From: a virus
Length of the DNA: 31,345 nt
Virus record (IMG/VR): IMGVR_UViG_3300025695_001455
Coordinates: 1 to 31,345 of that record
Direction: 5' to 3' (one strand)
This document shows, one piece after another, positions 1,926 through 26,852 of this stretch (positions are counted from its first letter, which is position 1; the number at the start of each line of letters is the position of its first letter). The translations under genes were made by a program, and so were the position numbers. The notes beneath the pieces were generated by a model, which was not told the DNA's origin, ran no database searches, and saw only the letters and a list, made by a program, of their open reading frames with translations.

Positions 1926-4430
1926 TTAAAATTTTTCTACCTTAAGAGTTACTTTCGGTCTACCCAAACTAACATTCATAGTTATAGATATAGAACCAGA
2001 CTTAGGTAATCTTTTATTTAACATCTCATCTGATATAGGGTCCTCTATATACTTGCGTATCGTCCTATTTATTTCTCTAGCACCATAAATCTTATCATAC
2101 CCTTCATTTAAAATGAATAACTTAGTTTTTTTATCGACTCTAAGCTTAAAACCATTTTCTGATAACCTTTTAGCTAAATTCTTAATTTGTATATCAATAA
2201 TCTTAGTTATATCATCTTCACTTAAATAATTAAAATGTATTATCTCATCTAAACGGTTAATAAATTCTGGTTTAAAAGTACGCTTCATGTTCTTATCGAT
2301 TATACTCTTAATATTCTCTAAATCATCTGTTTTAGAAGAAGAATCACTAAACCCCATTTTCGTACCGAAATCCTGAACCTCTTTCAATCCTATATTGGAA
2401 GTCATTATGATTAACGTATTTTTGAAGTTAATCTTTCTACCATTAGCATCAGTAAGAAAACCCTCGTCCAGTAATTGCAACATAACATTGAAAATATCTG
2501 GGTGAGCTTTCTCTATCTCATCAAAAAGTATTAGGGAGTAAGGTTTATTCTTAACTTTCTCAGTTAACTGACCACCCTCGTTATAACCAACGTATCCAGG
2601 AGGGGCACCTATAATCTTACTTATATTAAACTTTTCTGAATATTCAGACATATCCAATCTTATTATAGAATCAGAAGAACCAAAAACACTTTCAGCTAAA
2701 GACTTAGCTAATTCGGTTTTACCAACCCCAGTAGGTCCAATAAAAAGGAAAGAACCTATCGGTTTAGATTGTTCTCTAAAACCAGTTTTATTTCTTTTTA
2801 TAGAGGACACAACCTTTTCGATAGCCTCACTTTGACCAATAACTGAACCAGACAAAGTATCACTCATTTTAAGTAGTTTATTTATATCAGATTCGGTTAC
2901 CCTACTAACAGGTATACCAGTCATCATAGAAACAACATTAGAAATCATTTCTGGTTTGATAACCACCCTAGATTCATTAATACTCAATCTCCAAGAAACA
3001 TTAGCTTCTTCTAACTTAACTAATAATTTCTTCTCTTTATCCCTTAAACCAGCAGCTTTTTCAAAGTTCTGTGATTTAACCACACTAGACTTCTCATCTC
3101 TTATCTCCTTTATAGCTAATTCTAGATCTTTAATTTCTTTTGGTGTTTTAGTTGATACCTGAGCCCTAGAACCAACCTCATCCATAATATCGATAGCTTT
3201 ATCAGGGAACTCTCTGTTGGTTATATACCTATCAGCTAGATTTACAATTTCATCTATAGATTCATCTAAATACTCAACCTTATGGTAATCTTCGTACTTA
3301 TTCTTTATGTTTTTAAGTATCTCTTTAGTTTCCTCCAAAGAAGTTGGGTTAACCATAACTTTTTGGAATCTTCTATCTAAAGCACCATCCTTTTCGATAT
3401 GTTCTCTGTATTCGTCTATAGTGGTAGCACCTATACATTGTATTTCACCCCTAGCCATAGCTGGTTTAAATACGTTAGCAGCATCTAAAGATCCAGATGA
3501 ATTACCAGCACCGACTATGGTATGAATCTCATCTATAAATAAAATAACATCAGTATTCTCCTTAACCTCATCTATTACCGATTTAATTCTCTCCTCAAAT
3601 TGACCTCTATACTTGGTACCCGCAACTAAAGAAGTCATATCTAATGTTACAACTCGTTTACCGATCAAAGTCCTAGGACATTCACCATTAGCTATCTTAA
3701 TAGCTAAACCCTCAGCTATAGCAGTCTTACCCACACCTGGGTCCCCTATCAATATAGGGTTATTCTTCTTCCTTCTACTTAATATTTGACAAACCCTGTC
3801 AACCTCATGAGATCTACCTATAACTGGGTCTAATACATCCTCTAAAGCTAATTTGGTTAAGTCTCTACCAAAACCATCTAACATAGGTGTCTTACTTTTA
3901 GAGTTTTCATTAGTCTTCCTTCTAATTCTAGGTGACTCATCTTCGTTCGGTGTTATATTCATATTTGTTTTATTTGTTAATTGTTTTATTTTTCTATATA
4001 CAAATGTTTTTGTTAGACCAAAATCTTTAAACAACTTAACGAAAGCAGAATCTACTTCCATTGAGATCTTAAAAAAAGTTTCTACTGTCACGTACTCTTC
4101 AGTCTTTTTCTTCAAAACACTATTTCTTATTACATCGTGTAACTCAGTTTCAAATGGTAATATGGTACTAGAACCATCAGCTAGACCATCTGACGTTCTT
4201 TTTATTAGGTTATACATGTCATCTATAAGTAAGTCGAAATCAGTTACCTTATTTTTAACTATTTCTCTAACCATATTATCTGTAACTAGTATACCGTAAA
4301 CAACATGTTGTAATCTAAGTAATGAGTCATCATATTTTAACGCTAAAGACTGCCCTTTTGTAAAAGCCACCCTAAGTTCGTTAGTCATTCTTTCCTTCAT
4401 ATTATAATTTGTTTTAAACAAAGATAGCAT
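1926..4430 (-). CDS. clpC: ClpC-like Hsp100 AAA+ unfoldase
   Basis: This 834-residue protein has the layout of a class I Clp ATPase. It has an N-terminal Clp-N-like helical region (about 10-145). AAA+ domain 1 has Walker A GDPGVGKT at 229-236 and Walker B VILFIDE at 295-301. A UVR-type coiled segment (about 453-472, NFEKAAGLRDKEKKL) is typical of ClpC rather than ClpB. AAA+ domain 2 has Walker A GPTGVGKT at 565-572, pore loop GYVGYNEGG at 612-620 and Walker B SLILFDE at 632-638. After the SNIG motif there is an MGF tripeptide at 692-694, where bacterial ClpC has its VGF loop for docking to ClpP. The protein is therefore expected to unfold substrates and may feed them to host ClpP. A TATTTATA octamer 42 nt upstream suggests late expression, next to fibre and head genes. 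The family call is very secure; the role in infection is inference. Confidence 0.95.
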   Translation of the reverse strand: MLSLFKTNYNMKERMTNELRVAFTKGQSLALKYDDSLLRLQHVVYGILVTDNMVREIVKNKVTDFDLLIDDMYNLIKRTSDGLADGSSTILPFETELHDVIRNSVLKKKTEEYVTVETFFKISMEVDSAFVKLFKDFGLTKTFVYRKIKQLTNKTNMNITPNEDESPRIRRKTNENSKSKTPMLDGFGRDLTKLALEDVLDPVIGRSHEVDRVCQILSRRKKNNPILIGDPGVGKTAIAEGLAIKIANGECPRTLIGKRVVTLDMTSLVAGTKYRGQFEERIKSVIDEVKENTDVILFIDEIHTIVGAGNSSGSLDAANVFKPAMARGEIQCIGATTIDEYREHIEKDGALDRRFQKVMVNPTSLEETKEILKNIKNKYEDYHKVEYLDESIDEIVNLADRYITNREFPDKAIDIMDEVGSRAQVSTKTPKEIKDLELAIKEIRDEKSSVVKSQNFEKAAGLRDKEKKLLVKLEEANVSWRLSINESRVVIKPEMISNVVSMMTGIPVSRVTESDINKLLKMSDTLSGSVIGQSEAIEKVVSSIKRNKTGFREQSKPIGSFLFIGPTGVGKTELAKSLAESVFGSSDSIIRLDMSEYSEKFNISKIIGAPPGYVGYNEGGQLTEKVKNKPYSLILFDEIEKAHPDIFNVMLQLLDEGFLTDANGRKINFKNTLIIMTSNIGLKEVQDFGTKMGFSDSSSKTDDLENIKSIIDKNMKRTFKPEFINRLDEIIHFNYLSEDDITKIIDIQIKNLAKRLSENGFKLRVDKKTKLFILNEGYDKIYGAREINRTIRKYIEDPISDEMLNKRLPKSGSISITMNVSLGRPKVTLKVEKF

Positions 4431-6922: not shown

Positions 6923-7291
6923 ATGAGACCAGTAGGTTCAGAGAAAATAGTAAACCCAGACGAAAAATTGTTAAGAATTTTAGAGATTGCTGGTATAAAT
7001 AAAGACAGTATGAATGAAAATGTATCTAAAACTGGTACACCATCAGATGTCTTACACGAAGCATTAGCCTCTGACGGTACCGAATATGGTATTGTACAGG
7101 AAGAAAAACATGTTTACATAAAGGTTAAAAAAGAATCTGGTTACGAATATATTAGTGGTGTTCAAAACATACACGAACATTCTTACAGATCATACGCAGA
7201 AGCACTTAAGCATTTAAATATGATGTTTAAACAAATCAACGAAAATGTTGGTCATTCTGAAAATATAGATGTTTTAAAAAAAAAAGTCTAA
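6923..7291 (+). CDS. Putative head-core protein, N-terminal part before the frameshift
   Basis: The frame gives 122 residues and stops at TAA 7289-7291, directly after an A10 run. Residues 11-27 (NPDEKLLRILEIAGINK) resemble the N-terminal targeting motif of the head proteins at 20512-24891, with AGIN in place of MMGI. The middle (about residues 50-100) is a small beta-rich domain, with KHVYIKVKKESGYEYISGV. The acidic coding sequence that follows is open only in the -1 frame and has no start codon near this stop. I therefore read this and the next entry as one gene of about 314 residues joined by a -1 shift or by an assembly error in the A run. The family is not recognised. Confidence 0.75.
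   Translation: MRPVGSEKIVNPDEKLLRILEIAGINKDSMNENVSKTGTPSDVLHEALASDGTEYGIVQEEKHVYIKVKKESGYEYISGVQNIHEHSYRSYAEALKHLNMMFKQINENVGHSENIDVLKKKV
7271..7291 (+). other. A10 slippery run and -1 frameshift point
   Basis: Zero-frame codons are GTT TTA AAA AAA AAA GTC TAA. The ten A residues at 7276-7285 contain A AAA AAA heptamers. A -1 slip gives AGT CTA ACT GAA (S L T E) and then 193 open codons. Programmed slippage or a homopolymer miscall would look the same here. Confidence 0.7.
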
Positions 7292-8815: not shown

Positions 8816-9089
8816 ATTTATTTATCCTAACCAGTAACTTACCATCACCTTTTATAACCCTATGCCAATCATGTCTCTTTATAGATAAAGACTTATTATT
8901 ACACAATTTAATAGGTAGTTCGTTATCAAATTGAAACATCCAACCTTCACCACAGTCAATTACCTCAACCAACCTATCCTCTTTATCTCTATGCCACATC
9001 AATTCGATAGGGTCTATATCATCCCCAAACTCTCTAATGATACAACCAGACTTTAACTCGGTATCGATATAAGGTTTACCAGTACCCAC
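8805..9089 (-). CDS. Small cupin-like protein, 94 aa
   Basis: Residues ELMWHRDKEDRLVEV, GEGWMFQFDNELP and a closing HDWHRVIKG follow the spacing of short cupin-like barrels, where the first His/Glu block and a late His bind a metal. The residues WHRDxEDR and the late H-x-x-H make this plausible. The start is GTG at 9089, overlapping the upstream gene by 14 nt, so translation is probably coupled. No substrate can be named. The convergent gene at 8462 overlaps its 3' end. Confidence 0.6.
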   Translation of the reverse strand: MGTGKPYIDTELKSGCIIREFGDDIDPIELMWHRDKEDRLVEVIDCGEGWMFQFDNELPIKLCNNKSLSIKRHDWHRVIKGDGKLLVRINKFTT

Positions 9090-10647
9090 TAAAGTTAGAT
9101 TTTAAACCTAATAAACTTGCGTATCTAGGTAGTCTACAAGACCAGTATGATGCCTTAGTTCTATCCTTCTTATTAGCACAGTCATGTCTGGCCGCAAATG
9201 ATTTCCTAGCCTTAGGGTCGTTTAGTTTAACAGAAAGACCAGTAGTATCACCAAAAGAAACTTTCTTTATACCACCATTAGGTTTCCTAACGTAAACATA
9301 GAACTTCTTAGAACCACCTCGCTTTGGTTTGTTTAATTTAACATCCCTACCTTTATATTCAGCCTCATTTACACCATCAACAATACCCAGTAAAACTTTT
9401 CTAGCTTTAGCATCCAAATCTGAAGGTTTAATTAATTTAGCTGGTATTGTCTTCATATTAGAACCCAACGCTCTTTGAGCTCTATGGTTACCATCTAAAA
9501 TCCATTGAATCTCACCAACCTCGTTAACCATAATTAATATAGGGTATTGTTCGGAAACTTCAACCTGTTCAACTCTATCCAGCTCCTCAGGGTTACCATC
9601 CCAACCTAACACTACATCCGCTAATTTATCCGTCGGATAATCCTTTTTAGGTATATCTTTAGTCATAACTAAAATATCCTGTAGAGTGATCTTTTCACCC
9701 TCGTCATTTTCCCAAGAAGTATCTGAACCCTGTTCAGCTAAAATAGGGAGATCTAAGGGTACTTTAAGACCATTATACTCACCAAAGGTACCTAGACTAG
9801 TATTTTCAAAAAGAAATGAATCAAAACCGTCTAAATTAAGTGATCCTCTCTCCCACATCTCTCTAGCTTCTCTAATTAAATCCATGTGCTTATAACTACC
9901 AGGTCTATAAATATTTTCTATCAATGGTATATTGTTATCTAAATGATATGTTATACTTTCGTTTAACTCTACCATATCAGAAAGAACATCTAATTTCTCG
10001 TTAAGTCTCTCTTCAATTTTTAACTCTAAACACTCCTCACAAACGAACTCTGATTCAGAAAATAGTGATTCAAACTCTTTATTGTTGTACATATCGTTAA
10101 TAACCTCAAATACGAAAAAAAGATCTTTATACTTAGGGTTAACCTTAACACTATACATGTCATTCTTTTTTTCCATCATAGGTTCACCGAAGTTATCCTT
10201 AGCCATTGATATATAAAAACTAGGGTCCTCACACTCTGGTGAAATTGAGAATAATTCGGAAACAACCTCTAAATCAACATCACCGTTAGATTTAGTGAAA
10301 TCCAATACAGGCAACTTACGTATACCTATTTGCATAGCCATTATAGCTCTATGTCTACCATCACTATTCCTAACATCGGTCTTATCTAGCGAATATAAAG
10401 TTAAAGGGTCTAGTTTACCACCATTACTAACATGTGCGATAAGATCATTAATATTAGACCTAGTCTCATCAGTCATCTCCAATGGTTTAGCCTTCGATAA
10501 GAACTCATCTGGTGTCATATAAACCATTTCACCACCCCTAGCTTTATAATCAGAATCACCATACCACAACCCGATATCCTCTAACGGGTATTCTTTATAA
10601 AACCCTTCGTTTAATGAATCTAATATATCTTTTTTAGTAACAATCAT
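9076..10647 (-). CDS. Multidomain protein with two ParB/sulfiredoxin-like modules; possible head polyprotein
   Basis: The 523-residue protein has two ParB/Srx-like signatures: DGRHRA at 96-101, preceded by LDPLTLYSL, and DGNHRA at 385-390, preceded by YPILIMVNEVGEIQWIL. The C-terminal 95 residues (about 429-523) are a separate basic module with VKLNKPKRGG, KKFYVYVRKPNGG, RKSFAARHDC and YWSC; a similar module occurs in many phage structural-region proteins. (L/I/V)-N-E tripeptides mark the N-terminus (LNE 12-14), the centre (LNE 215-217 and 228-230) and the junction to the C-terminal module (VNE 426-428). These fit cleavage by a T4 gp21-like protease. CxxC at 203-206 may bind metal. ParB-fold modules can be CTPases, nucleases or kinases; the activity is unknown. 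TATTTATA lies 15 nt upstream, so it is probably a late gene. Confidence 0.75.
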   Translation of the reverse strand: MIVTKKDILDSLNEGFYKEYPLEDIGLWYGDSDYKARGGEMVYMTPDEFLSKAKPLEMTDETRSNINDLIAHVSNGGKLDPLTLYSLDKTDVRNSDGRHRAIMAMQIGIRKLPVLDFTKSNGDVDLEVVSELFSISPECEDPSFYISMAKDNFGEPMMEKKNDMYSVKVNPKYKDLFFVFEVINDMYNNKEFESLFSESEFVCEECLELKIEERLNEKLDVLSDMVELNESITYHLDNNIPLIENIYRPGSYKHMDLIREAREMWERGSLNLDGFDSFLFENTSLGTFGEYNGLKVPLDLPILAEQGSDTSWENDEGEKITLQDILVMTKDIPKKDYPTDKLADVVLGWDGNPEELDRVEQVEVSEQYPILIMVNEVGEIQWILDGNHRAQRALGSNMKTIPAKLIKPSDLDAKARKVLLGIVDGVNEAEYKGRDVKLNKPKRGGSKKFYVYVRKPNGGIKKVSFGDTTGLSVKLNDPKARKSFAARHDCANKKDRTKASYWSCRLPRYASLLGLKSNFSGYW

Positions 10648-10726: not shown

Positions 10727-11083
10727 ATGAAATACTTGGAAGCAGAATTGTACGAAAGTAAAGAGTGTGAATATACTTCACCCGTTTTAGTTAACCTGGA
10801 TAAACTAATATCTAGGTTAAAGTCTGACACCCCAGAATATCATATAGACATTGATACTAAAAACGTATATTCTATTAACAGAGTTAATGATTGTATAAAC
10901 CACATCAAAAAAAATATTAACAAAAAAGGTTCGTTAGAACTACCATCATTAGGGTTCCAATCTAATAAGATAGGTGTTATAGATGGTAGACACAGGATAA
11001 TAGCCAACAAAAAAATTGGGTATACCCACATTTATGTAGATATACCCAATTCATATAAAGATATATTATTAAATCTTAATTAA
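10727..11083 (+). CDS. ParB/sulfiredoxin-like small protein
   Basis: The 118-residue protein carries IGVIDGRHRIIANKKIGY (about 87-104), the same DGRHR signature as the divergent neighbour at 10647. Upstream are VNLDKLISRL and INRVNDCINHIKKNI helices, and the chain ends with THIYVDIPNSYKD. It is one isolated ParB/Srx-like fold. The neighbour has two such modules, so they may share a ligand or have arisen by duplication. The 3' end overlaps the convergent gene at 11076 by 8 nt. Confidence 0.65.
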   Translation: MKYLEAELYESKECEYTSPVLVNLDKLISRLKSDTPEYHIDIDTKNVYSINRVNDCINHIKKNINKKGSLELPSLGFQSNKIGVIDGRHRIIANKKIGYTHIYVDIPNSYKDILLNLN

Positions 11084-11705
11084 ATTTAACCATACTTTTC
11101 AATTTATCACTACCAATACCTTCAATAGACTCTGGACTAACTTCCATAAACCAAACATCACCATTTTCATAAGCTTCTTGGTCACCAGAATCAATATCAT
11201 TACTGTTATTTAAATAACTAGCCATAGCACCTAATAGTTCACCTTGATCAATATAACTCTTCCAATCGTTTATAGCGACCATATATCGACCATCCTCATC
11301 TTCATCTTCTTCTTGAGGTATATCTAAAAAGTCAGATAACTCATCATATATATCATATTTACCATCAGTGATAGCTTCATTAATAGTGTAATAATATTTA
11401 CCACTAGATTTATCCATCAATAGCATCTCATCCCCATCATAACCAACACCAACAATGTCACCCTTAACGTACTCACCCTGTCTAGTACTACCACCATCAT
11501 CATTCCATGGGGCGCTAGGATCTGCGTCAGCTCCAGCTGGGTAGTTATAATTATCGTACTCTTCAACCTTATCGGCTAAACTCTCGAATATGTTTTTTAA
11601 CTGATCTTCAGATATCTGTTCTTTAGTATCATTTTTAGAAGACTTCTTATTTTCTAAAATACTCTTCATTTGAGATTCAGTTATTTTATAGATTTTCTTA
11701 CCCAT
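11076..11705 (-). CDS. Acidic late protein with possible N-terminal targeting peptide
   Basis: The 209-residue protein starts MGKKIYKITESQMKSILEN. ITE at 8-10 and the amphipathic helix around it are similar to, but not the same as, the MMG-type head-targeting peptide. The rest is acidic, with a region rich in Asp/Gly/Pro (PAGADADPSAPWNDDGGS) and another DIPQEEDEDEDGRYMVAIND. No enzymatic motif is seen. TATTTATA ends 11 nt upstream of the ATG. I infer a virion or head-associated protein; the family is not recognised. Confidence 0.65.
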   Translation of the reverse strand: MGKKIYKITESQMKSILENKKSSKNDTKEQISEDQLKNIFESLADKVEEYDNYNYPAGADADPSAPWNDDGGSTRQGEYVKGDIVGVGYDGDEMLLMDKSSGKYYYTINEAITDGKYDIYDELSDFLDIPQEEDEDEDGRYMVAINDWKSYIDQGELLGAMASYLNNSNDIDSGDQEAYENGDVWFMEVSPESIEGIGSDKLKSMVKFN

Positions 11706-13797: not shown

Positions 13798-14433
13798 TTA
13801 TGAATTAATAATGGTTTTCATTCTATTAATGGATTCATAAACAGCCCCAGACTCTATATCATCATAGTTCTTCATAGCCATTTCACCATCTTTTTCATCC
13901 TCCATTTGTTTAATCATTTCTTCGATCTCATCGATACCTTCACTAGCTTTATTAGAGAAGCCAGTTAGCTTATCATAAGCTCTTTTAAGCCAATCCTTTA
14001 CAGAACCAAACCAATTAGTAATCGCTCCTTCATATACCTTAGAACCGTCTATAGTAAGTTTACCCTTAACTTTACCAGCAACTTTAGACTCCTCTAAAAT
14101 TTGGTTCAGTACTTTTTTGGTATTTTCATTTACTTTAGTCAAAGCTGTATCAAACGCCTGTTTATAAGAAGTGGTAAGTCTTTCTGATTGCTGAGTAATC
14201 TCAACTAACAAACCATCTAATTCAACCTTAAGTTTTTTACCTGGATCAACCTGACCATCAAACATAGCCATAACCTCTGGTACTAATTCGCTTTTAGTAG
14301 CCTCCAATTCAGATACAGACTCTTTGTATAAAGCTAGAGCTTCATCCAATTTGATTTGTATATCCTTTAATTCGTTTATTTTATTCTTAATGGATTCCTC
14401 CATATTTGGGTTAAAAACTTCGTTAATCTCCAT
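13798..14433 (-). CDS. Coiled-coil late protein, putative head/core component
   Basis: The 211-residue protein is almost entirely helical, with heptad-like spacing from about residue 12 to 110 (ELKDIQIKLDEALALYKESV and onward) and an acidic, Met-rich C-terminal helix (IDEIEEMIKQMEDEKDGEMA). A short central segment (KGKLTIDGSKVYEGAITNWF) breaks the coil. INE at residues 3-5 fits the (L/I)-x-E tripeptide of the head set, but the rest of the targeting motif is absent. TATTTATA lies 20 nt upstream. A scaffold-like or internal head role is inferred; the family is not recognised. Confidence 0.65.
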   Translation of the reverse strand: MEINEVFNPNMEESIKNKINELKDIQIKLDEALALYKESVSELEATKSELVPEVMAMFDGQVDPGKKLKVELDGLLVEITQQSERLTTSYKQAFDTALTKVNENTKKVLNQILEESKVAGKVKGKLTIDGSKVYEGAITNWFGSVKDWLKRAYDKLTGFSNKASEGIDEIEEMIKQMEDEKDGEMAMKNYDDIESGAVYESINRMKTIINS

Positions 14434-17398: not shown

Positions 17399-19789
17399 TT
17401 ATTTTCCGTCAGCTGGGTATTCAGTAACATAAGCAACCGCTTTGTTTACCGCTAATAATACACCTACACCTGTAGATAACATATATACTTGAGCAGACTC
17501 ACCTTCTTGAAGGATTAGTTCAGCAGTACCATAAGGGTTACCAAATAGTTGGTTGAATCTAACTATAAATTCAGATGATCCAGTACTATCACCAGCTAAA
17601 TCAGCTATAACTATAGTACTAATAGTACCAGCAGTAGCAGCAGTAAAGTCGATGTTCCCGTTAGTTACAGCAGGCGCGTCAACGACCATTATAGCTTCAG
17701 CAGAACCAACAACCACATATGATGCACCAGTTATATCAAGCTTATTACCGTCGAATATATATCTTGGGTTCTCAGCTAAATACTCTACGTCATCAATGTT
17801 ACCTTGTAATACTGTATCAGCAGAAGCTCTAGCAACTAATTCAGTTGATAATGCAGCGTCGTTAGACGTTTCATAATCAGATAAGTCACCAGCAACAGCG
17901 TCGATGTTATCTTGTAATACAACATCAGCAGAAGCTCTAACAACTAATTCAGTTGACAATGCAGCATCGTTAGACGCTTCATAATCAGATAAGTCGGTAG
18001 CAACGGCACTAATGTCATCTTTTAACACAACATCAGCAGAAGCTCTAACAACTAATTCAGTTGACAATGCAGCGTCGTTAGACGTTTCATAATCAGATAA
18101 GTCACCAGCAACAGCGTCGATGTTATCTTGTAATACAACATCAGCAGAAGCTCTAACAACTAATTCAGTAGACAAGTTATCTTCGATAACTCCTTCAGCA
18201 GCGATAGCTCTTGCAGTTTCAACAGAAACAGCTTCACTTACTTCGATGTCTGTAGCGAAATCATTGTTAAGGTTATCTATTCTAGTCGTCAATGAAGCAT
18301 CTCCAGATATTCTTGCAGTCTCTTCAGCAGTGATATCAGTAGATAAATCGTTGTCAGCAGCAGCTCTATCCACTAATTCAGTTGATAAGTTATCAGCAAT
18401 AACTCCTTCAGCAGCTAGTGCTCTTGTTTCTTCAGCGTCAATGTTACCTTGTAACACAACATCAGCAGAAGCTCTAGCAACTAATTCAGTTGATAAGTTA
18501 TCTTCGATAACACCTTCAGCAGCTAATGCTCTAGTTTCTTCAGCATCAACGTCAGCGATTCTATCAGCAACTTCAGTAGACAATGCAGCATCGTTAGATG
18601 TTTCATAATCAGATAAGTCAGAAGCGATTGAACCTTCAGCAGCGATAGCTCTAGTTTCTTCAGCATCAATGTTACCTTGTAATACAACATCGGCAGCAGC
18701 TCTATCTACTAATTCAGTCGATAAGTTATCTTCAATAACACCTTCAGCAGCTAATGCTCTAGTTTCCTCAGCATCAATATTACCTTGTAATACCGTATCA
18801 GCAGAAGCTCTAGCAACTAATTCAGTTGACAATGCAGCGTCGTTAGACGTTTCATAATCACTTAAGTCAGAAGCAATTGATCCTTCAGCGGCAATAGCTC
18901 TAGCAGTTTCAACAGAAACAGCTTCACTTACTTCGATATCCGTAGCAAAATCATTGTTAAGGTTATCTATTCTAGTTGCCAATGAAGCATCTCCAGATAT
19001 TCTTGCAGTTTCTTCAGTAACAATTTTACCTTCTAACACTGTATCAGCAGAAGCTCTATCTACTAATTCAGTTGATAAGTTATCTTCGATAACTCCTTCA
19101 GCTGTTTCAGCTCTCAATTGCTCAGCATCAACATCAGCAATTCTGTCTGCAACTTCAGTTGATAATGCAGCATCGTTAGATGTTTCATAATCAGCTAAAT
19201 CAGAAGCGATTGAACCTTCAGCAGCGATAGCTCTAGTTTCTTCAGCATCAACGTCAGCTTCTCTATCAGAAATTTCCTGAGTTAAGTCACCAGCAACACC
19301 ATCGATGTTGTTTTGTAATTGAGTATCAGCAGAAGCTCTATCAGCAACCTCAGTTGATAATGCAGCATCATTAGACGCTTCATAATCACTTAAGTCAGTA
19401 GAAACACCATCAATGTTACCTTGTAACGTTGAGTCAGCAGCAGCTCTATCTACTAATTCAGTAGACAAGTTATCTTCGATAACTCCTTCAGCAGCGATAG
19501 CTCTTGCAGTTTCAACAGAAACAGCCTCACTTAATTCGATGTCTGTAGCGAAATCAGCACTAAAATTGTCTAATCTAGTATCTAATGAAGCCTCAGCAGC
19601 ATCACTAGTAGTTTTATTGTCAGTAATTACTGTCTCTAAAGATGCATCTACCGACGCACTAAGAGCTTCTTCAGCACTTACTCTTGTTTCCAAAGATGTG
19701 TTCAAGTCTTCTAAGAACTCGAAGTTACCATCTAATTGGGTGAAACTTAACGCTTGTGTTAAGTTCTTTCTTAAATTTAAATTTGCCAT
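17399..19789 (-). CDS. Coiled-coil tail fibre with repeats
   Basis: The 796-residue protein starts MANLNLRKNLTQALSFTQLD and shares the pattern LRxxLxxALS(Y/F)TxLDxNFE with the collagen-like fibre at 1862. Residues about 30-670 are repeats of short helices (ETRAIAAEGVIEDNLSTELV, RASADTVLQGNID, DLSDYETSNDAALSTE) typical of trimeric coiled-coil fibre shafts. The last 120 residues lose the repeat and become beta-rich (YIFDGNKLDITGASYVVVG and onward, ending AVAYVTEYPADGK), the likely tip or a small knob. TATTTATA lies 47 nt upstream and a terminator follows. Two fibres with the same attachment motif but different shafts suggest alternative or paired adhesins. Confidence 0.85.
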   Translation of the reverse strand: MANLNLRKNLTQALSFTQLDGNFEFLEDLNTSLETRVSAEEALSASVDASLETVITDNKTTSDAAEASLDTRLDNFSADFATDIELSEAVSVETARAIAAEGVIEDNLSTELVDRAAADSTLQGNIDGVSTDLSDYEASNDAALSTEVADRASADTQLQNNIDGVAGDLTQEISDREADVDAEETRAIAAEGSIASDLADYETSNDAALSTEVADRIADVDAEQLRAETAEGVIEDNLSTELVDRASADTVLEGKIVTEETARISGDASLATRIDNLNNDFATDIEVSEAVSVETARAIAAEGSIASDLSDYETSNDAALSTELVARASADTVLQGNIDAEETRALAAEGVIEDNLSTELVDRAAADVVLQGNIDAEETRAIAAEGSIASDLSDYETSNDAALSTEVADRIADVDAEETRALAAEGVIEDNLSTELVARASADVVLQGNIDAEETRALAAEGVIADNLSTELVDRAAADNDLSTDITAEETARISGDASLTTRIDNLNNDFATDIEVSEAVSVETARAIAAEGVIEDNLSTELVVRASADVVLQDNIDAVAGDLSDYETSNDAALSTELVVRASADVVLKDDISAVATDLSDYEASNDAALSTELVVRASADVVLQDNIDAVAGDLSDYETSNDAALSTELVARASADTVLQGNIDDVEYLAENPRYIFDGNKLDITGASYVVVGSAEAIMVVDAPAVTNGNIDFTAATAGTISTIVIADLAGDSTGSSEFIVRFNQLFGNPYGTAELILQEGESAQVYMLSTGVGVLLAVNKAVAYVTEYPADGK
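17790..19560 (-). repeat. Internal DNA repeats in the coiled-coil fibre gene
   Basis: Blocks of 30 to more than 85 nt recur with few changes. The clearest pair is about 18230-18330 and 18920-19020, both coding ETARISGDASLxTRIDNLNN and its neighbours. Such repeats allow length change by recombination. Confidence 0.8.
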
Positions 19790-20511: not shown

Positions 20512-21789
20512 ATGAAAAAGCTAGTAATTAACGAAGAGATCGTTAGAATGAGACAAATGATGGGTATTAACGAGAATACTATTAAAGAAGATAATGTAGG
20601 TGAAGAAACTGTTAGTGAAGACATGTCTTCATTGGAGGACGTTATCGTACATCTAATGAATACACATAACATGGATTATGATGAAGCTAGTGTTTTTAGT
20701 AAAGAATTTGAGGATAATTTACCTGTAACACATAAGGATGTTGAAGATTTCTTCACTGACTTAAGTAACTCTGATTCACCAGAAGTACCTGGTTTTGAGG
20801 GTACTATGGATAAATTAAATGACCTTAGTATATTTAATGAAGAGGAAACGGAAGATCCAGTAAACGAGATAGGGATGTTTCATGATGCTAGAATGGGATC
20901 CGACGATTACTTAACCCCAAAAGAAACTGAATCACCAAGACAATGCTCATTAACTGGTGAAGGTATGGACGCAGGTTGGGTTCACGAAGATAGAGACAAA
21001 TATTTTAAATACGAAAAGGATGTTGTTGATTACATAAAAGGGTTAATGACTTATAACAGAGAAAGTATCAAAGATTTAACTGATGACGAAATTCTAGAGA
21101 TAGGTTATAACAAATATAATGTATACTATACAGAATGGGAAGAAGATGATGTATCTGAAAATGATGAGGTAAAAAAGAAATTTAAAGACGAGTACGGAAA
21201 AAAGAAAGGTGAGGCGATATACTACGCTACCGCTAACAAACAAGATAGAGACCCAGAAACTTTCGAGAAAAATGAATCCTTTGATCCATTAGATGCTTAT
21301 GAAGAAGGTGAATCTGATTGTTGTGGTGCCCCAATTTTTATGGGTGATATATGTTCAGATTGTTATGAACATTGTAGTGTGGCGGAATTGGATGAAGAGT
21401 CAGCTATAGGTGGATGGGATTTAGCTATGGAAGCCATGGATACACTAGAAAGTGAAATTAAAGAAGAAGAACAATCATGGTTAGCTATGAGAAGTGGTAA
21501 AGAAGGTAAGGTTTATGAGAATAGAACTTATGAAGGTAGAGCTTACGCACAAGAAACCTATTTTGAAACTCAGTCTGGTGCATTAGAGTCAGCAGAAGAA
21601 TACGCACTTAATAGAGGTTATGAGGCTAATATGGCTAGCTTCTACCCAGAACATATTAAATATGGGCAAACTGTAAGTTACAGTGTAGAACTAAGTAAAA
21701 ATGGTAAACCAGTAAAAAACAAAATGTTACAGATATCACTTTATAGAATGGATTCTGGTAAATATGAATTAACGAACTACATCAACTAA
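20512..21789 (+). CDS. Putative internal head protein with N-terminal targeting motif and zinc-finger-like segment
   Basis: The 425-residue protein begins with the shared motif: INEEI (6-10), then VRMRQMMGINE ending at residue 21. It has (I/L)-x-E at 6-8 and 19-21, the same positions as in the next gene. After an acidic linker it has a region with CSLTGEGMDAGWVHEDRDKY, then FKDEYGKKKGEAIYYATANK, then a Cys-rich segment DCCGAPIFMGDICSDCYEHC that should bind zinc. The C-terminus is beta-rich (GQTVSYSVELSKNGKPVKNK). It is overall very acidic. By analogy with T4 internal proteins I infer that it is packaged in the prohead and trimmed after MMGINE. The function of the mature domains is unknown. 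Confidence 0.75.
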   Translation: MKKLVINEEIVRMRQMMGINENTIKEDNVGEETVSEDMSSLEDVIVHLMNTHNMDYDEASVFSKEFEDNLPVTHKDVEDFFTDLSNSDSPEVPGFEGTMDKLNDLSIFNEEETEDPVNEIGMFHDARMGSDDYLTPKETESPRQCSLTGEGMDAGWVHEDRDKYFKYEKDVVDYIKGLMTYNRESIKDLTDDEILEIGYNKYNVYYTEWEEDDVSENDEVKKKFKDEYGKKKGEAIYYATANKQDRDPETFEKNESFDPLDAYEEGESDCCGAPIFMGDICSDCYEHCSVAELDEESAIGGWDLAMEAMDTLESEIKEEEQSWLAMRSGKEGKVYENRTYEGRAYAQETYFETQSGALESAEEYALNRGYEANMASFYPEHIKYGQTVSYSVELSKNGKPVKNKMLQISLYRMDSGKYELTNYIN

Positions 21790-21798
21790 TTTAACTTC

Positions 21799-22356
21799 AT
21801 GAAAAAAGATTTACTAACAGAAGAGATTTCTAAAATAAAAGATATGATGGGTATCTCAGAAGAGATGGGTACACCACAATCACAAAACCCTACAGGGGCC
21901 GCTAAGAAAAAATGGGATTCTGGTGTGGCTAGATCTGGTCCAGGTAACCCAGTGGTAGATAATAATAGTTCGTATAGTATTAGAACAAATCATGGTAAAG
22001 GTAACCCTATAGAATTAGGTGAAGCTGATGATAAAGAAGATTCTTTAGAAGAGTTTTCGGAGAATAGAATGTCTGGTGCCAAAAAAATAGCAGATAACGC
22101 AAAAGAAAAGGGTGGTTCATCAATATTAACATACCACCACTTCGACGTTAAGTTACCTTACTATGATAAAGCAGCAAAAGGAGAATTCAACGTAGAGGAG
22201 GCAACTAAAGAGTATGACGAACTATTAACCAAGTTAATGTCATCGTCAGAAGGTGAAATAACCATAGACGAGATAGAATTCCAGGAATTAGTTGGTAAAA
22301 TAGAGGTATTAGGCGAGTTAATTAGAAAAGAATCTAAATTAACTCAAAAGAAATAG
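21799..22356 (+). CDS. Putative internal head protein with N-terminal targeting motif
   Basis: The 185-residue protein begins LLTEEISKIKDMMGISEE (residues 5-22), with LTE at 6-8 and ISE at 19-21. A low-complexity linker follows (TGAAKKKWDSGVARSGPGNP), then a helical C-terminal domain with ILTYHHFDVKLPYYDKAAKG and an acidic bundle (EATKEYDELLTKLMSSSEGE). The latter YHHFDVKLPYY segment looks conserved and may be functional. It follows the previous gene by 9 nt, on the same late transcript. The 3' end overlaps the convergent gene at 22334 by 23 nt. Confidence 0.72.
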   Translation: MKKDLLTEEISKIKDMMGISEEMGTPQSQNPTGAAKKKWDSGVARSGPGNPVVDNNSSYSIRTNHGKGNPIELGEADDKEDSLEEFSENRMSGAKKIADNAKEKGGSSILTYHHFDVKLPYYDKAAKGEFNVEEATKEYDELLTKLMSSSEGEITIDEIEFQELVGKIEVLGELIRKESKLTQKK

Positions 22357-23098
22357 TAACCAATTGATTAGCAACAAAATTAGCATCTGACGCTGTCACT
22401 AAAACCACGGAGTTTGCAGGACCCATGAAAAAAGAACGACTCAACTCACTCCCTTCTTCCAAACCTAAACCAGTGGCTGTGTAGACAGCAGAGTCACCGT
22501 TCTGAGTAAAAGTTATTCTATAATTAGCGTTGGCTATAGTATTGAAATAAGATTCCGTATTAACACCCTCAATATCCGCCACATTCCAATATACGGAATC
22601 TAAATCGAATTTGTTAGGGTTCAACGTACCTTCAGTACCAGCACCAGACAATACTGGGAATATAACTCTACCAGCCGATGGTGGTTCGTAAGGTAATGTA
22701 ACCAATTCAAAAGAATACCCACTAACAATAGGTTTTTGATCATTCAAAATGACATAGGTACCAGAAATAGATGCTTTAGCCCCGCTAACCGTTGTATGAC
22801 CACCAGTTGAACCTGGTAATTTGTTAATTAACCCTATTAAAGAATCGTCAGTTAAATCCGAAGATTTCCAAAAAGTCGGCTTATCTGGGATAACCATACC
22901 AGTATCACCACCAGTAGTTCTACCAAGTAGGTTAGCAGAAGTGGTATCACTAACTATAACGTAACCATCTGAGTAATCTACACCACCATACCAATCACCA
23001 GAACTATAATCATGTTCACCGTCAGATATGGCTATATTATTTACTTGTGTTGTACCATCTATAGGTCCACCACTATTAACCGAAATATCGTTTATCAT
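22334..23098 (-). CDS. Probable virion surface or adhesin protein, beta-rich
   Basis: The 254-residue protein is Gly/Ser/Thr-rich and beta-prone throughout (GGVDYSDGYVIVSDTTSANL, AGRVIFPVLSGAGTEGTLNP, ANYRITFTQNGDSAVYTATG). Lysine and helix content are low. This is the usual look of a phage fibre, head decoration or tail-tip protein. It is 7 nt downstream of the LETM1-like gene and so belongs to the leftward late transcript from 24905. The family is not recognised. Confidence 0.65.
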   Translation of the reverse strand: MINDISVNSGGPIDGTTQVNNIAISDGEHDYSSGDWYGGVDYSDGYVIVSDTTSANLLGRTTGGDTGMVIPDKPTFWKSSDLTDDSLIGLINKLPGSTGGHTTVSGAKASISGTYVILNDQKPIVSGYSFELVTLPYEPPSAGRVIFPVLSGAGTEGTLNPNKFDLDSVYWNVADIEGVNTESYFNTIANANYRITFTQNGDSAVYTATGLGLEEGSELSRSFFMGPANSVVLVTASDANFVANQLVTISFELI

Positions 23099-23105
23099 TA
23101 CCTAT

Positions 23106-24380
23106 TTAATTTTTAAACAAACCCTTAAAAGAGTGTAATTTTTCTAATGAATTAGTTTTATATATAAATTCTTCAAGTACTTCAGACAATTCATCTAAAG
23201 TTAATTGTAAGTCATCTAATTCCTCAACGATACTCTCTAACATCTTAAGTTTATCAGAAAGATTTCTGAAATCGAAAGCGTCAACCACATCATAATAATA
23301 CTGAAATTTCTTATACGTTTTACTGTATTCGTATCTCATATCATCATGGTAATTATTAAAAGTACCTTTGTTGTCGTATATATCCATTAGAGTACTGTTA
23401 AGCACTATATTTTTATATTTACCTATAGAACTTATAGCTTCATCCCTAACTCTAGTAGCGTCAACTATAAATTCGTCTATCTTATCATCAGAATAACCAA
23501 CAACCGATGCTTCAGAAATAGAAACAGGGTTATCTTTAAAAGAAGATGGGGTTATCCAGGATTCCTTTTTAAAGAACTTTATTAATATAGCTGCTATTAA
23601 ACCTCCTGGTAAAATAGATATTGCCGCTAAACCAGATAATTTTAGAAGGTCCTTAAGTTGCGTACCTATCTCTTTTAAATCCTCATCACTAAGTCTTTGA
23701 GTACCAGAAGCGGCTTTAATTAACTTAGTTATAGCTTCTAAAGTTTCAACACCTTCCTGCTTTAAGTTATCCTTTATTATACCAAGTTTAGATTTAAGTT
23801 TAGATATATAACCCCTTAAATTAGAATCCTCCATCACATACTCCTCAGAGATAGCTTTAGCCTCTAACTCGTTTATCTGGAATATTTTATCGGATGGTTG
23901 GTTTATCATCTCAACTTCTTTAGCCATATAAACAGGTGTTTCGTCATTTTTATATACAAAAGAATCGTATTTATAAGGGTTATATGTTATAACCTTAGAA
24001 CCAGTTGATTGTGGTATGTCGTCAGAAGGATGTTCCTTATAATCCACTAAAGTACCAATAACAAATGCGTGAACATTTTTTCTCTTTTCATCCCTAACCT
24101 TATCCTTTCCACCCTGTCTAACTCTGAACTCAACGTCTTTAAGTTTAACGTAATCAGAATAAGACTTAACCAGTCCTTTATAAGTTACAGAAAAAACGTG
24201 TTTGTGTAGGTTATAATAAACCATCACCTTTTTACCAATAAGTTCATCATCAGAAACTTCACTAGAATCATCAGATGTGTCATCCTCAGTATCAGCGAAC
24301 ATATCTAATTGATTCTCTGTTAAACCCATCATCTCATGGATTCTATATAACTCTTCGTTTAAACTATTCTTATTAACCAT
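23106..24380 (-). CDS. Putative head polyprotein with targeting motif and LETM1-like membrane-type segment
   Basis: The start is ATG 24380; the longer TTG start at 24395 would overlap the previous gene. Residues 7-22 (LNEELYRIHEMMGLTE) are the shared targeting motif. Residues about 45-115 form a domain with VMVYYNLHKHVFSV and EKRKNVHAFVIGTL that I recall from many phage proteins of unknown function. Residues about 187-283 look like the LETM1 family: a helical lead with SGTQRLSDEDLKEIGTQLKD, a hydrophobic LAAISILPGGLIAAILIKFF (251-270) and TPSSFKD. The C-terminus is a coiled coil. (I/L)-x-E tripeptides sit between the parts (INE 169-171, ISE 177-179, ISE 288-290). The LETM1 resemblance is a motif reading only. 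A packaged, protease-processed protein is inferred. Confidence 0.7.
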   Translation of the reverse strand: MVNKNSLNEELYRIHEMMGLTENQLDMFADTEDDTSDDSSEVSDDELIGKKVMVYYNLHKHVFSVTYKGLVKSYSDYVKLKDVEFRVRQGGKDKVRDEKRKNVHAFVIGTLVDYKEHPSDDIPQSTGSKVITYNPYKYDSFVYKNDETPVYMAKEVEMINQPSDKIFQINELEAKAISEEYVMEDSNLRGYISKLKSKLGIIKDNLKQEGVETLEAITKLIKAASGTQRLSDEDLKEIGTQLKDLLKLSGLAAISILPGGLIAAILIKFFKKESWITPSSFKDNPVSISEASVVGYSDDKIDEFIVDATRVRDEAISSIGKYKNIVLNSTLMDIYDNKGTFNNYHDDMRYEYSKTYKKFQYYYDVVDAFDFRNLSDKLKMLESIVEELDDLQLTLDELSEVLEEFIYKTNSLEKLHSFKGLFKN

Positions 24381-24381
24381 A

Positions 24382-24891
24382 TTATATTCTTTCAATATTA
24401 ATTCTATCTAAAATAAAGATACCATTATCACCCGAAAACACTATTTCCTCTGGTGAAACAGATACGCTACCACCTTCATGGTAATCTAAATCACTAAAAA
24501 TAGATTCATGGTTATTAGATAACCAATCAACCAATCTATCCTCATAACCATCACCTAAATTAACACTCACTATCACACCTTTATCTAGGTTGGCGAAGGT
24601 TAAATCAGTACTGGTTTTAGACTCAACTTCAGCTAATTGTTTCAAGTTACCCACTAACATATCATAATCATCCATGGTTAAAACACCATTCTTTGATCCA
24701 GATATCGCTTTTTCAGCCAAATCATGTAAATCCATATCAGTCTTAGCATCTTCCTTAGCGTACTCGAGGGTACGTATAAATAAAGGTACATCCATAGTCA
24801 CCGTATCAATCTCATCTTTAGTATTAGGTGTAGAAATACCCATCATATTACGAATATTTTCTATTTCTTCATTTAATAAACCATTAACCAT
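24382..24891 (-). CDS. Putative internal head protein with N-terminal targeting motif
   Basis: The 169-residue protein begins LLNEEIENIRNMMGISTP (residues 5-22). It keeps LNE at 6-8 but has IST where the others have IxE, so the second site may not be cut. A helical domain follows (DVPLFIRTLEYAKEDAKTDM, HDLAEKAISGSKNGVLTMDD), then a beta-rich C-terminus. Its stop is 1 nt before the ATG of the LETM1-like gene, so the two are translationally coupled. TATTTATA lies 13 nt upstream. Confidence 0.72.
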   Translation of the reverse strand: MVNGLLNEEIENIRNMMGISTPNTKDEIDTVTMDVPLFIRTLEYAKEDAKTDMDLHDLAEKAISGSKNGVLTMDDYDMLVGNLKQLAEVESKTSTDLTFANLDKGVIVSVNLGDGYEDRLVDWLSNNHESIFSDLDYHEGGSVSVSPEEIVFSGDNGIFILDRINIERI

Positions 24892-24974: not shown

Positions 24975-26852
24975 ATGAATAACCCGTTTAACGTACTAGA
25001 TAGCAAGTATCCAGACATAAGATTTGAACTATACACAAAAGAAAAGGATAAGAGTGTTTATCTGACTGGGTTTATAGTACCACAATCAATGAGAAATCAA
25101 GGTGTGGGTTCCGACTTTATGAATGACCTAATAAAGATAGCTGATGGTGACGGATGGAAGATAACACTAACACCATCATCCAGTTACGGAGGTAATGTGA
25201 ATAGGTTAAAGAAATTCTATAAAGACTTTGGTTTTGTTGAAAATAAAGGTCAAAATAGAGACTTTACACACAAAGAAGATATGTACAGAGAACCTAAAAA
25301 TATGGGTACAGAAGAAACAATAACCGAAAAGGTTGTGGGTGACAAAATAGAATGTAATAAATGTGATTGGAGCTGGGATATTAAAGACGGTGGTGATGAC
25401 TTATATGTTTGTCATAAATGCGGTAACGACAATACACCAAAACTTAATGAAAATGTTAATAGGTTAAAACAAATAATCACGTTAACTGAAGAAAAGAAAC
25501 CAAAAGCTGATAGATGCCTTAGGATAGCTAGAAGAAAATATGATAAACCCTCAGCATATAGGTCTGGAGCTATTGTAAGATGTAGAAACGGTAAGATATG
25601 GAAAGATCTAAAAGAAGATGACATAAATGAGGCACCAGAGGATATAAAGGAACTACTATACCAGGCACACGAAGCTATAACAAGCGTGGAAGGTGAAGAT
25701 TACGCACCAAATATCCATGAACTAGAAGGTTGGGTTAAAAATCATATAAATGAGTACAATACATTTACAGGTGAAGAGGTAGCACAACACATCAAAGACA
25801 TAACACCAGAAGAAAGTGATATACCAGACCACTTCATAGATGAGTTCATTATACCTAACGACGGATGGGTTCTAAAACAAATAAATCTTAAAGAATTATT
25901 AAACGATAAAGATTTTAAAGAATATTACGATTCAGGCGATGAAAGATACGAAGACGAGGAAGTTAATGCCGATGATTTATACAACGATTTAGTGGTATAT
26001 AATGGTGAACTATTAGACGGTTACTCTAGAGCAGCAAAAATGATACGCTCTGGTGAAAAAGTGGCTGGCGCATTCGTATTAGAACCAGAAGATATAAACG
26101 AAGCCAAAAAAACTGATTATTCAAAAGAGAAAAAAGACGGACTACACGGATGGTTCTCCAGAAGAGGTGGTGGTGGTAACAAAGGTTGGGTAGACTGTAA
26201 TACATGTAGAACAGTAAACGGTAAAAAGAAATGTAAGGCCTGTGGTAGAGAAAAAGGTGAGAAAAGATCTAAATACCCATCCTGTAGACCAACACCAGGA
26301 TCATGCGGAACACCTGGTAAAGGTAAAAAATGGGGTAAGACTAAAAAGAATGAATCTATTACCGAAAACATTAATGAAGAAGATATGGAAAAGAAAAGAA
26401 TAGCATTATTATTCATAGTGATAGATAATAAAGTATTATTATTTAAAAGAAGTCCAGAGGAAACAACAAACGCTGGTAAATACGGAATGCTTGGTGGTCA
26501 TATAGAAAAAGGTGAAACCCCAGAAGAAGCTTTAGTTAGAGAGGTTAAAGAAGAAGCTGGTGTAGAAATCGAACCAGAATCATTTAAAAAACTAAAAACA
26601 TACGAAATGGATAATGTACAGTTAAATGTTTTCCACACAAATGAATTCGATGTAGAGAATATAGAACTGGATAAAAAAGAACACGTAAGTAAAAAATTCT
26701 TTACCTTAGAAGAGCTGGATGAAATGTCACCAGAAGAATGTATAGAAACTAACAAGGAAATAGCTAGAGACTATAACGAAAAAGTGACTAAGAGTAACGA
26801 ACTAAATGAGGACATCCAAAGAGTCAAGGAATGGTTTAAAATACTAAACTAA
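24975..26852 (+). CDS. Modular polyprotein: GNAT, zinc ribbon, ParB-like, DUF5872-like and Nudix domains
   Basis: This 625-residue protein strings together unrelated domains. Residues 1-100 are GNAT-like: RNQGVGSDF (40-48) fits the acetyl-CoA loop and FYKDFGFVE (81-89) the closing strand. 125-152 is a zinc ribbon (C127, C130, C146, C149). 157-172 (LNENVNRLKQIITLTE) repeats the head-targeting motif internally. 178-213 is a basic module (DRCLRIARRKYDKPSAYRSG). About 290-372 has a ParB/Srx-like LLDGYSRAAK. 386-455 resembles DUF5872 (GLHGWFSRRGGGGNKGWVDC, YPSCRPTPGSC). 472-606 is a Nudix hydrolase with a full Nudix box, GHIEKGETPEEALVRE plus VKEEAGV (508-530). (I/L)-x-E tripeptides lie at nearly every junction: ITE 116-118, LNE 157-159, LTE 170-172, INE 217-219, INE 374-376, ITE 462-464, INE 466-468, LNE 610-612. 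I infer proteolytic processing in the prohead. Confidence 0.85.
   Translation: MNNPFNVLDSKYPDIRFELYTKEKDKSVYLTGFIVPQSMRNQGVGSDFMNDLIKIADGDGWKITLTPSSSYGGNVNRLKKFYKDFGFVENKGQNRDFTHKEDMYREPKNMGTEETITEKVVGDKIECNKCDWSWDIKDGGDDLYVCHKCGNDNTPKLNENVNRLKQIITLTEEKKPKADRCLRIARRKYDKPSAYRSGAIVRCRNGKIWKDLKEDDINEAPEDIKELLYQAHEAITSVEGEDYAPNIHELEGWVKNHINEYNTFTGEEVAQHIKDITPEESDIPDHFIDEFIIPNDGWVLKQINLKELLNDKDFKEYYDSGDERYEDEEVNADDLYNDLVVYNGELLDGYSRAAKMIRSGEKVAGAFVLEPEDINEAKKTDYSKEKKDGLHGWFSRRGGGGNKGWVDCNTCRTVNGKKKCKACGREKGEKRSKYPSCRPTPGSCGTPGKGKKWGKTKKNESITENINEEDMEKKRIALLFIVIDNKVLLFKRSPEETTNAGKYGMLGGHIEKGETPEEALVREVKEEAGVEIEPESFKKLKTYEMDNVQLNVFHTNEFDVENIELDKKEHVSKKFFTLEELDEMSPEECIETNKEIARDYNEKVTKSNELNEDIQRVKEWFKILN

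Follow-up and report, generated by a model that had tools for sequence, protein, structure and literature searches.

An N-terminal peptide shared by unrelated proteins of an uncultured T4-like phage: a probable capsid-targeting sequence resembling the C-terminus of the scaffold

In an uncultured, T4-like phage, four open reading frames (ORFs) with unrelated bodies begin with the same peptide of about 20 residues, and the question raised by this locus is what such a shared N-terminus is for. The DNA that was analysed, referred to as the window, is the complete IMG/VR record IMGVR_UViG_3300025695_001455 (31,345 bases), a piece of a larger phage genome. The four ORFs start at 20512 and 21799 on the plus strand and at 24380 and 24891 on the minus strand. 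The selection of proteins for T4-like heads is understood in detail only for the few internal proteins of T4. The T4 internal proteins IPI-III and Alt have an N-terminal capsid-targeting sequence, CTS (Mullaney and Black 1996, reviewed in PMC9026906), and the T4 protease gp21 cleaves after (L/I)-x-E (PMC9026906). An initial annotation of the window had inferred capsid targeting followed by proteolytic removal for the shared peptide, and this proposal is supported by its three computational predictions, the outcome of which is given below. The peptide, or tag, is probably a capsid-targeting sequence, one that imitates the helix at the C-terminal end of the phage scaffold and is cleaved off by an S77 protease. 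The match to the scaffold, which was not part of the initial annotation, provides a likely targeting mechanism.

The four N-termini were present as they had first been written. The tag of ORF 20512-21789, MKKLVINEEIVRMRQMMGINE (20512..20574, plus strand), scored 43.5 bits, with a predicted cut after INE-21, while that of ORF 21799-22356, MKKDLLTEEISKIKDMMGISE (21799..21861, plus strand), for which homologues were found, scored 38.6 bits and would be cut after ISE-21. The tag of ORF 23106-24380, MVNKNSLNEELYRIHEMMGLTE (24315..24380, minus strand; 43.6 bits), begins with the ATG at 24380, the position at which its homologues also begin, and its predicted cut follows LTE-22. On ORF 24382-24891 the tag is MVNGLLNEEIENIRNMMGIST (24829..24891, minus strand; 38.6 bits). 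The final (I/L)xE, reported to fall near residue 21, ends at residue 21-22 in three copies and is replaced by IST in the fourth; the second copy described at residues 6-9 was also seen and is the first in order. The bodies fall into four separate homology clusters, so the proteins are otherwise unrelated, as stated. The description needs correction in detail, in that two of the genes lie on each strand and an untagged gene (22334-23098, minus strand) sits between the plus and the minus pair. The scores were obtained with a position-specific scoring matrix (PSSM) of 15 columns built from related phages. The copies in the window cannot be attributed to chance because they scored 38-44 bits and the shuffled ORFs of eleven related contigs (about 1.2 Mb) gave a single match of 9 bits or more. 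The tag is unnamed in both Pfam and PHROG.

Related phages also carry the peptide, at the start of proteins that are unrelated to one another. At least 119 stretches of IMG/VR matched a degenerate DNA pattern for the tag core. Apart from some chance matches and one unrelated internal motif, the GGPMNEDDLTPEELAAIQEMMGM type, which was excluded, the matches fall within residues 4-20 of ORFs that have no relation to each other. Of 51 PSSM matches in the contigs that were read first, wholly or in large part, 49 adjoined a start codon and the other two stood at the very C-terminus; four of the 51 were counted twice because one contig (G017) is nearly identical to the phage of the window. The tag has two dialects, LNEEIxRIKxMMGIxxE (MMG) and LSEEFxRMQKLAGIIxE (LAGI). 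The latter (MKKQILSEEFxRMQKLAGIIxE), which is frequent as well, was discovered through an isolate, Flavobacterium phage immuto, whose dialect had escaped a strict regular-expression scan of its genome. Tagged immuto ORFs include L122:20432 and one on L123 that starts MKKQILSEQFKRMQFLAGIITE. Among 97 distinct LAGI copies, 82 were N-terminal and four were at extreme C-termini, at least two of these in the proteins (L274, L301) that occupy the position of T4 gp22. In all, 292 distinct N-terminally tagged proteins were found, with bodies in 137 unrelated clusters (E 1e-3), most of them without a Pfam match. Random viral DNA from IMG/VR (1.05 Mb, 2,403 ORFs) contained no N-terminal copy, compared with a density of 19-149 per Mb in tagged phages. 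C-terminal copies of 10 bits or more were found on 7 of 1,043 ORFs, and on none of the internal or shuffled controls. A tblastn search of isolate phages with the 21-residue tag gave no match because the tag is too short for such a search, and the motif strings were not found in the literature searched.

The tag is followed by a likely cleavage site. In the MMG dialect, 71% of the 58 cluster representatives had (L/I)xE at an offset of 10-16 from the start of the motif, mostly at 13 or 14, compared with 3-17% in control windows further down the proteins and 12% in shuffled sequences. The DNA pattern used for MMG set no requirement behind MMG, whereas the corresponding LAGI figure of 89% is inflated because the pattern required the Glu; the MMG value is relied on instead. 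In an alignment of capsid proteins, the cut in T4 gp23, FLTE/AE, matched IVSE/AN in immuto and LINE/AT in an MMG phage, and this alignment with (I/V)xE sites suggests the same cleavage specificity.

A protease of the appropriate type accompanies the tag. All nine of the tag-selected contigs that reach 100 kb encode Peptidase_S77 (PF03420), the family of the gp21-type prohead protease, as do three of six random contigs of that size. The long contig most closely related to the window (G062, 56 kb) has it too; this relative and the window have at least 15 genes in common, mostly in the same order and 37-88% identical, among them tagged orthologues of 20512 and 21799. The gp21-like protease that the initial annotation expected was thus located in the relatives, although not in the window itself.

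The window contains no head genes. In relatives that have them, the place of T4 gene 22 is taken by an ORF that is flanked by the protease and capsid genes, and its product, the putative scaffold, ends in a short predicted helix with an x-E site before it (LIE, IIE, IVE or LNE, for example). The C-termini were ...PIIEVNNQFARWQKLAGIK and ...PIVESNEMVNRFQKLAGII in LAGI phages, ...NLIESKTYENPQFLRMKDLMTKIK in MMG phages and ...KLNESTAYQNPQLSRMLDIIGKIK in G062, where the scaffold end is also given as ...NPQLSRMLDIIGKIK. The immuto scaffold ends in ...SEQVSRWQKLAGIIK, compared with LSEQFRRMQKLAGIITE for the immuto cargo tag, and, when the C-termini of 167 ORFs were scored with the LAGI tag, came first at 32.9 bits, the next reaching 1.8. 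LAGI scaffolds and the LAGI tag have R-x-Q-K-L-A-G-I-I in common almost letter for letter. In an unanchored profile comparison, the LAGI tag matched the LAGI scaffold with z=10.3 and the MMG tag matched the MMG scaffold with z=5.0, in one register. The scores within a dialect exceeded those between dialects, and the controls (capsid ends, C-termini of the S77 protease, the N-terminus and middle of the scaffold) did not exceed z=1.8. Homology between the MMG and the LAGI scaffolds extends to their last residues (hhalign 98%). Moreover, the C-terminal copies on cargo proteins (LNRIKDLMKKIL and ...LNEELNRIKDLMKKIL) were the best match in their own genome to the scaffold end (RMKDLMTKIK). Microcystis phage Mel-JY01 (L651:23870-24970) has a LAGI-type scaffold end, ...NNVVERMKKLAGIVK, and no N-terminal tag was found in this phage, a pattern suggesting that the scaffold function is the older one and the cargo copies are derived.

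These results point to a mechanism in which the tag would be a short amphipathic helix, a portable copy of the one at the C-terminus of the phage's own gp22-position scaffold. Tagged cargo would enter the prohead core through the contact normally made by the scaffold C-terminus. The partner in this contact would be the shell protein or other subunits of the core. The S77 prohead protease would then cut after the (L/I)-x-E behind the helix, and the mature cargo would be freed inside the head and delivered with the DNA; packaging, cleavage, partner and injection are what we infer from the genomes. The AlphaFold model of the 21799 product agrees with a removable tag, in that it consists of a low-confidence helix (residues 2-16), a long disordered linker and a folded, all-helical domain (residues 83-184; body at 21862..22356, plus strand), with a pLDDT of about 80-93 across the core of that domain. 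A fold search with this model against the PDB gave no match. The same body is present in immuto behind another N-terminus. The body of the 20512 product (20575..21789, plus strand), which has a zinc-ribbon-like CxxC...CxxC stretch, had homologues and no Pfam or PHROG match; in eight homologues both the tag and the body were kept and the linkers in between varied. The 24380 body (23106..24314, minus strand) carries a Phage_L5_gp82 domain (PF25735, phrog_586), and its cluster contains 14 further tagged proteins. The body of the 24891 product (24382..24828, minus strand) matched no family in Pfam or PHROG.

Several observations weigh against a scaffold-mimicking, cleavable tag, 1) the 24891 tag is the only one of the four copies in the window that lacks the final (L/I)xE, 2) the window has no S77 protease gene, and the co-occurrence in relatives is modest support by itself because S77 is common in large phages, 3) the label scaffold reflects position and composition only, as the gp22-position proteins are unnamed in PHROG and Pfam and no homology to T4 gp22 could be demonstrated (hhalign probability 4%), 4) when T4 was checked for the same mimicry, the gp22 C-terminus had no such motif and the T4 CTS was no copy of it, and 5) PSSM ranking of the MMG scaffold C-termini was weak (ranks 2-12) and BLOSUM scans were mixed, so that the MMG resemblance is visible at the profile level only and single sequences do not prove it. 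For MMG it was the profile comparison, with its controls, that decided the matter.

The tag could also be a T4-like targeting and cleavage peptide that acts through another core protein, its resemblance to the scaffold being incidental. Amphipathic helices resemble one another, the MMG similarity is weak when sequences are taken singly, and the CTS of T4 shows none of this mimicry. We consider this unlikely, since an incidental likeness does not account for the stronger match within each dialect, the nearly letter-for-letter agreement with the LAGI scaffold, the low scores of the control segments or the match of the C-terminal cargo copies to the scaffold end. Far less probable is a role other than that of a head address, in which the peptide would direct proteins to the tail or baseplate or serve as a helix for protein interactions in general. 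Some tagged bodies are wall-degrading enzymes common in tails, namely an M23 peptidase with a phage-lysozyme (tail-lysozyme) domain (L490:16156-17724) and a GH19 chitinase (L093:3812-4612), but this would leave unexplained why the tag follows the scaffold dialect and why a prohead-protease site comes immediately after it, and the tail proteins of T4 are not known to be gp21 substrates. Bacteria have N-terminal degrons, and a ClpA/B-like ATPase encoded by the window (1926-4430) is kept in the same phage group at 45-81% identity; a degradation or adaptor signal for this ATPase is nonetheless scarcely credible, because it leaves both the (L/I)xE behind the tag and the scaffold match unexplained and because the tagged phage immuto gave no match to the ATPase. 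Finally, a nucleic-acid signal at the 5' end, either a recombination site or a translation leader, can practically be dismissed, as can a recent duplication: the tags do lie directly behind start codons and identical tag residues share codons slightly more often than expected when all genomes are pooled (61% vs 52%), but sharing in the window is close to the expectation from codon usage (53% vs 51%), so the conserved unit is the peptide rather than the DNA, and copies of the peptide lie inside proteins and at C-termini as well.

Copies of the latter kind, which the initial annotation had missed, are found in the window on ORF 24975-26852 (plus strand). This multidomain cargo candidate combines GNAT-like, zinc ribbon, DUF5872-like and Nudix modules, which are separated by (L/I)xE sites. 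An internal copy, LNENVNRLKQIITLTE (residues 157-172; 25443..25490; 13.3 bits), lies between modules and a C-terminal copy, LNEDIQRVKEWFKILN, occupies residues 610-625 (26802..26849; 14.7 bits); the orthologue in G019 ends LNETIQRMKSIIGL (23.4 bits). A domain with the motif DTSWENDEGxK is a small, separately tagged protein in two relatives (G011 and G012) and lies inside a 523-residue ORF in the window (9076-10647), with ILAE just before it, which suggests that cargo domains are joined by protease sites.

The scaffold-mimicking tag may have a wider significance. We think it probable, with less assurance than for the targeting function itself, that T4-like phages, including one isolate, immuto, which infects Flavobacterium, use a modular encapsidation code in which the scaffold C-terminal helix has been placed at both ends of proteins and between their domains, in more than 100 unrelated protein families and in dialects specific to the lineage. 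If so, injected cargo could be read straight from the sequence. The tag would provide a rule for listing the injected proteins across a very large group of uncultured phages, and among these one would expect counter-defence and host-takeover proteins. That the tag copies the scaffold C-terminus suggests where its binding partner is to be sought, and such tags provide new handles for the packaging of proteins in phage heads.

The closest parallel is the CTS of T4, likewise a short N-terminal propeptide on unrelated proteins, movable between cargoes and followed by (L/I)-x-E, in a phage with a gp21-family prohead protease. The published CTS has 10 residues, compared with about 21 here, and comparison by inspection revealed no sequence similarity. 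The tag described here also differs in that it occurs internally and at C-termini, on dozens of cargo families, and matches the scaffold C-terminus in lineage-specific dialects. The earlier suggestion of the same system as in T4 was therefore correct as to the kind of system, but in sequence the peptide shows no homology to the CTS of the T4 internal proteins. Engineered cargo has been loaded into P22 particles by way of scaffold C-termini. There too the coat-binding end of the scaffold is the packaging handle, but that arrangement is man-made, whereas the tag is natural and found on many phage proteins. In phage P1, an N-terminal signal directs the large injected protein DarB to the head (PMC9024508), and the GNAT part of the 24975-26852 product resembles parts of DarB-like antirestriction proteins from other phages. 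The prohead protease of the giant phages phiKZ and SPN3US also removes N-terminal propeptides from many head proteins, but these are often longer than 100 residues and are cut at A-x-E or S-x-E, and scaffold mimicry was not described there (PMC5694885).

Weaker candidates were found elsewhere in the window. The looser version of the tag noted earlier at 6923 is plausible; PDEKLLRILEIAGIN (6956..7000, plus strand), near the N-terminus of ORF 6923-7291, scored 7.8 bits, and orthologues of this ORF were kept in three relatives (G062, G050 and G019) at 71-79%. A C-terminal candidate on ORF 13798-14433, YESINRMKTIINS (13801..13839, minus strand), scored only 0.7 bits, and 4.9 bits in the G019 orthologue. 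A long repetitive ORF with many AEETRAIAAEGVIEDNLSTELVDRAAAD-like units (17399-19789) probably encodes a fibre protein and had no relative in the searched parts of G062, G050, G019 and immuto.

A second tag-like N-terminus, KK(I/V)(I/V)(R/K)LTESDLxRIVKRVLxE, was present on 22 ORFs in eight of the tagged phages (G003, G011, G006, G012, G004, G014, G021 and G015, within L134-L182 and L185-L188) and absent from the 1.05 Mb of random viral DNA. One C-terminal copy of the KKIIRLTESDLxRIVKRVLxE class adjoins a capsid gene, and a looser form occurs at 11076-11705 of the window. It is possibly another address tag, and may extend the encapsidation code as a second, independent class. A third repeated N-terminus, ENFDLKKFLVENKLTxNSKxLxE, was seen in immuto on three ORFs (L122 12563, L122 27389 and one more).

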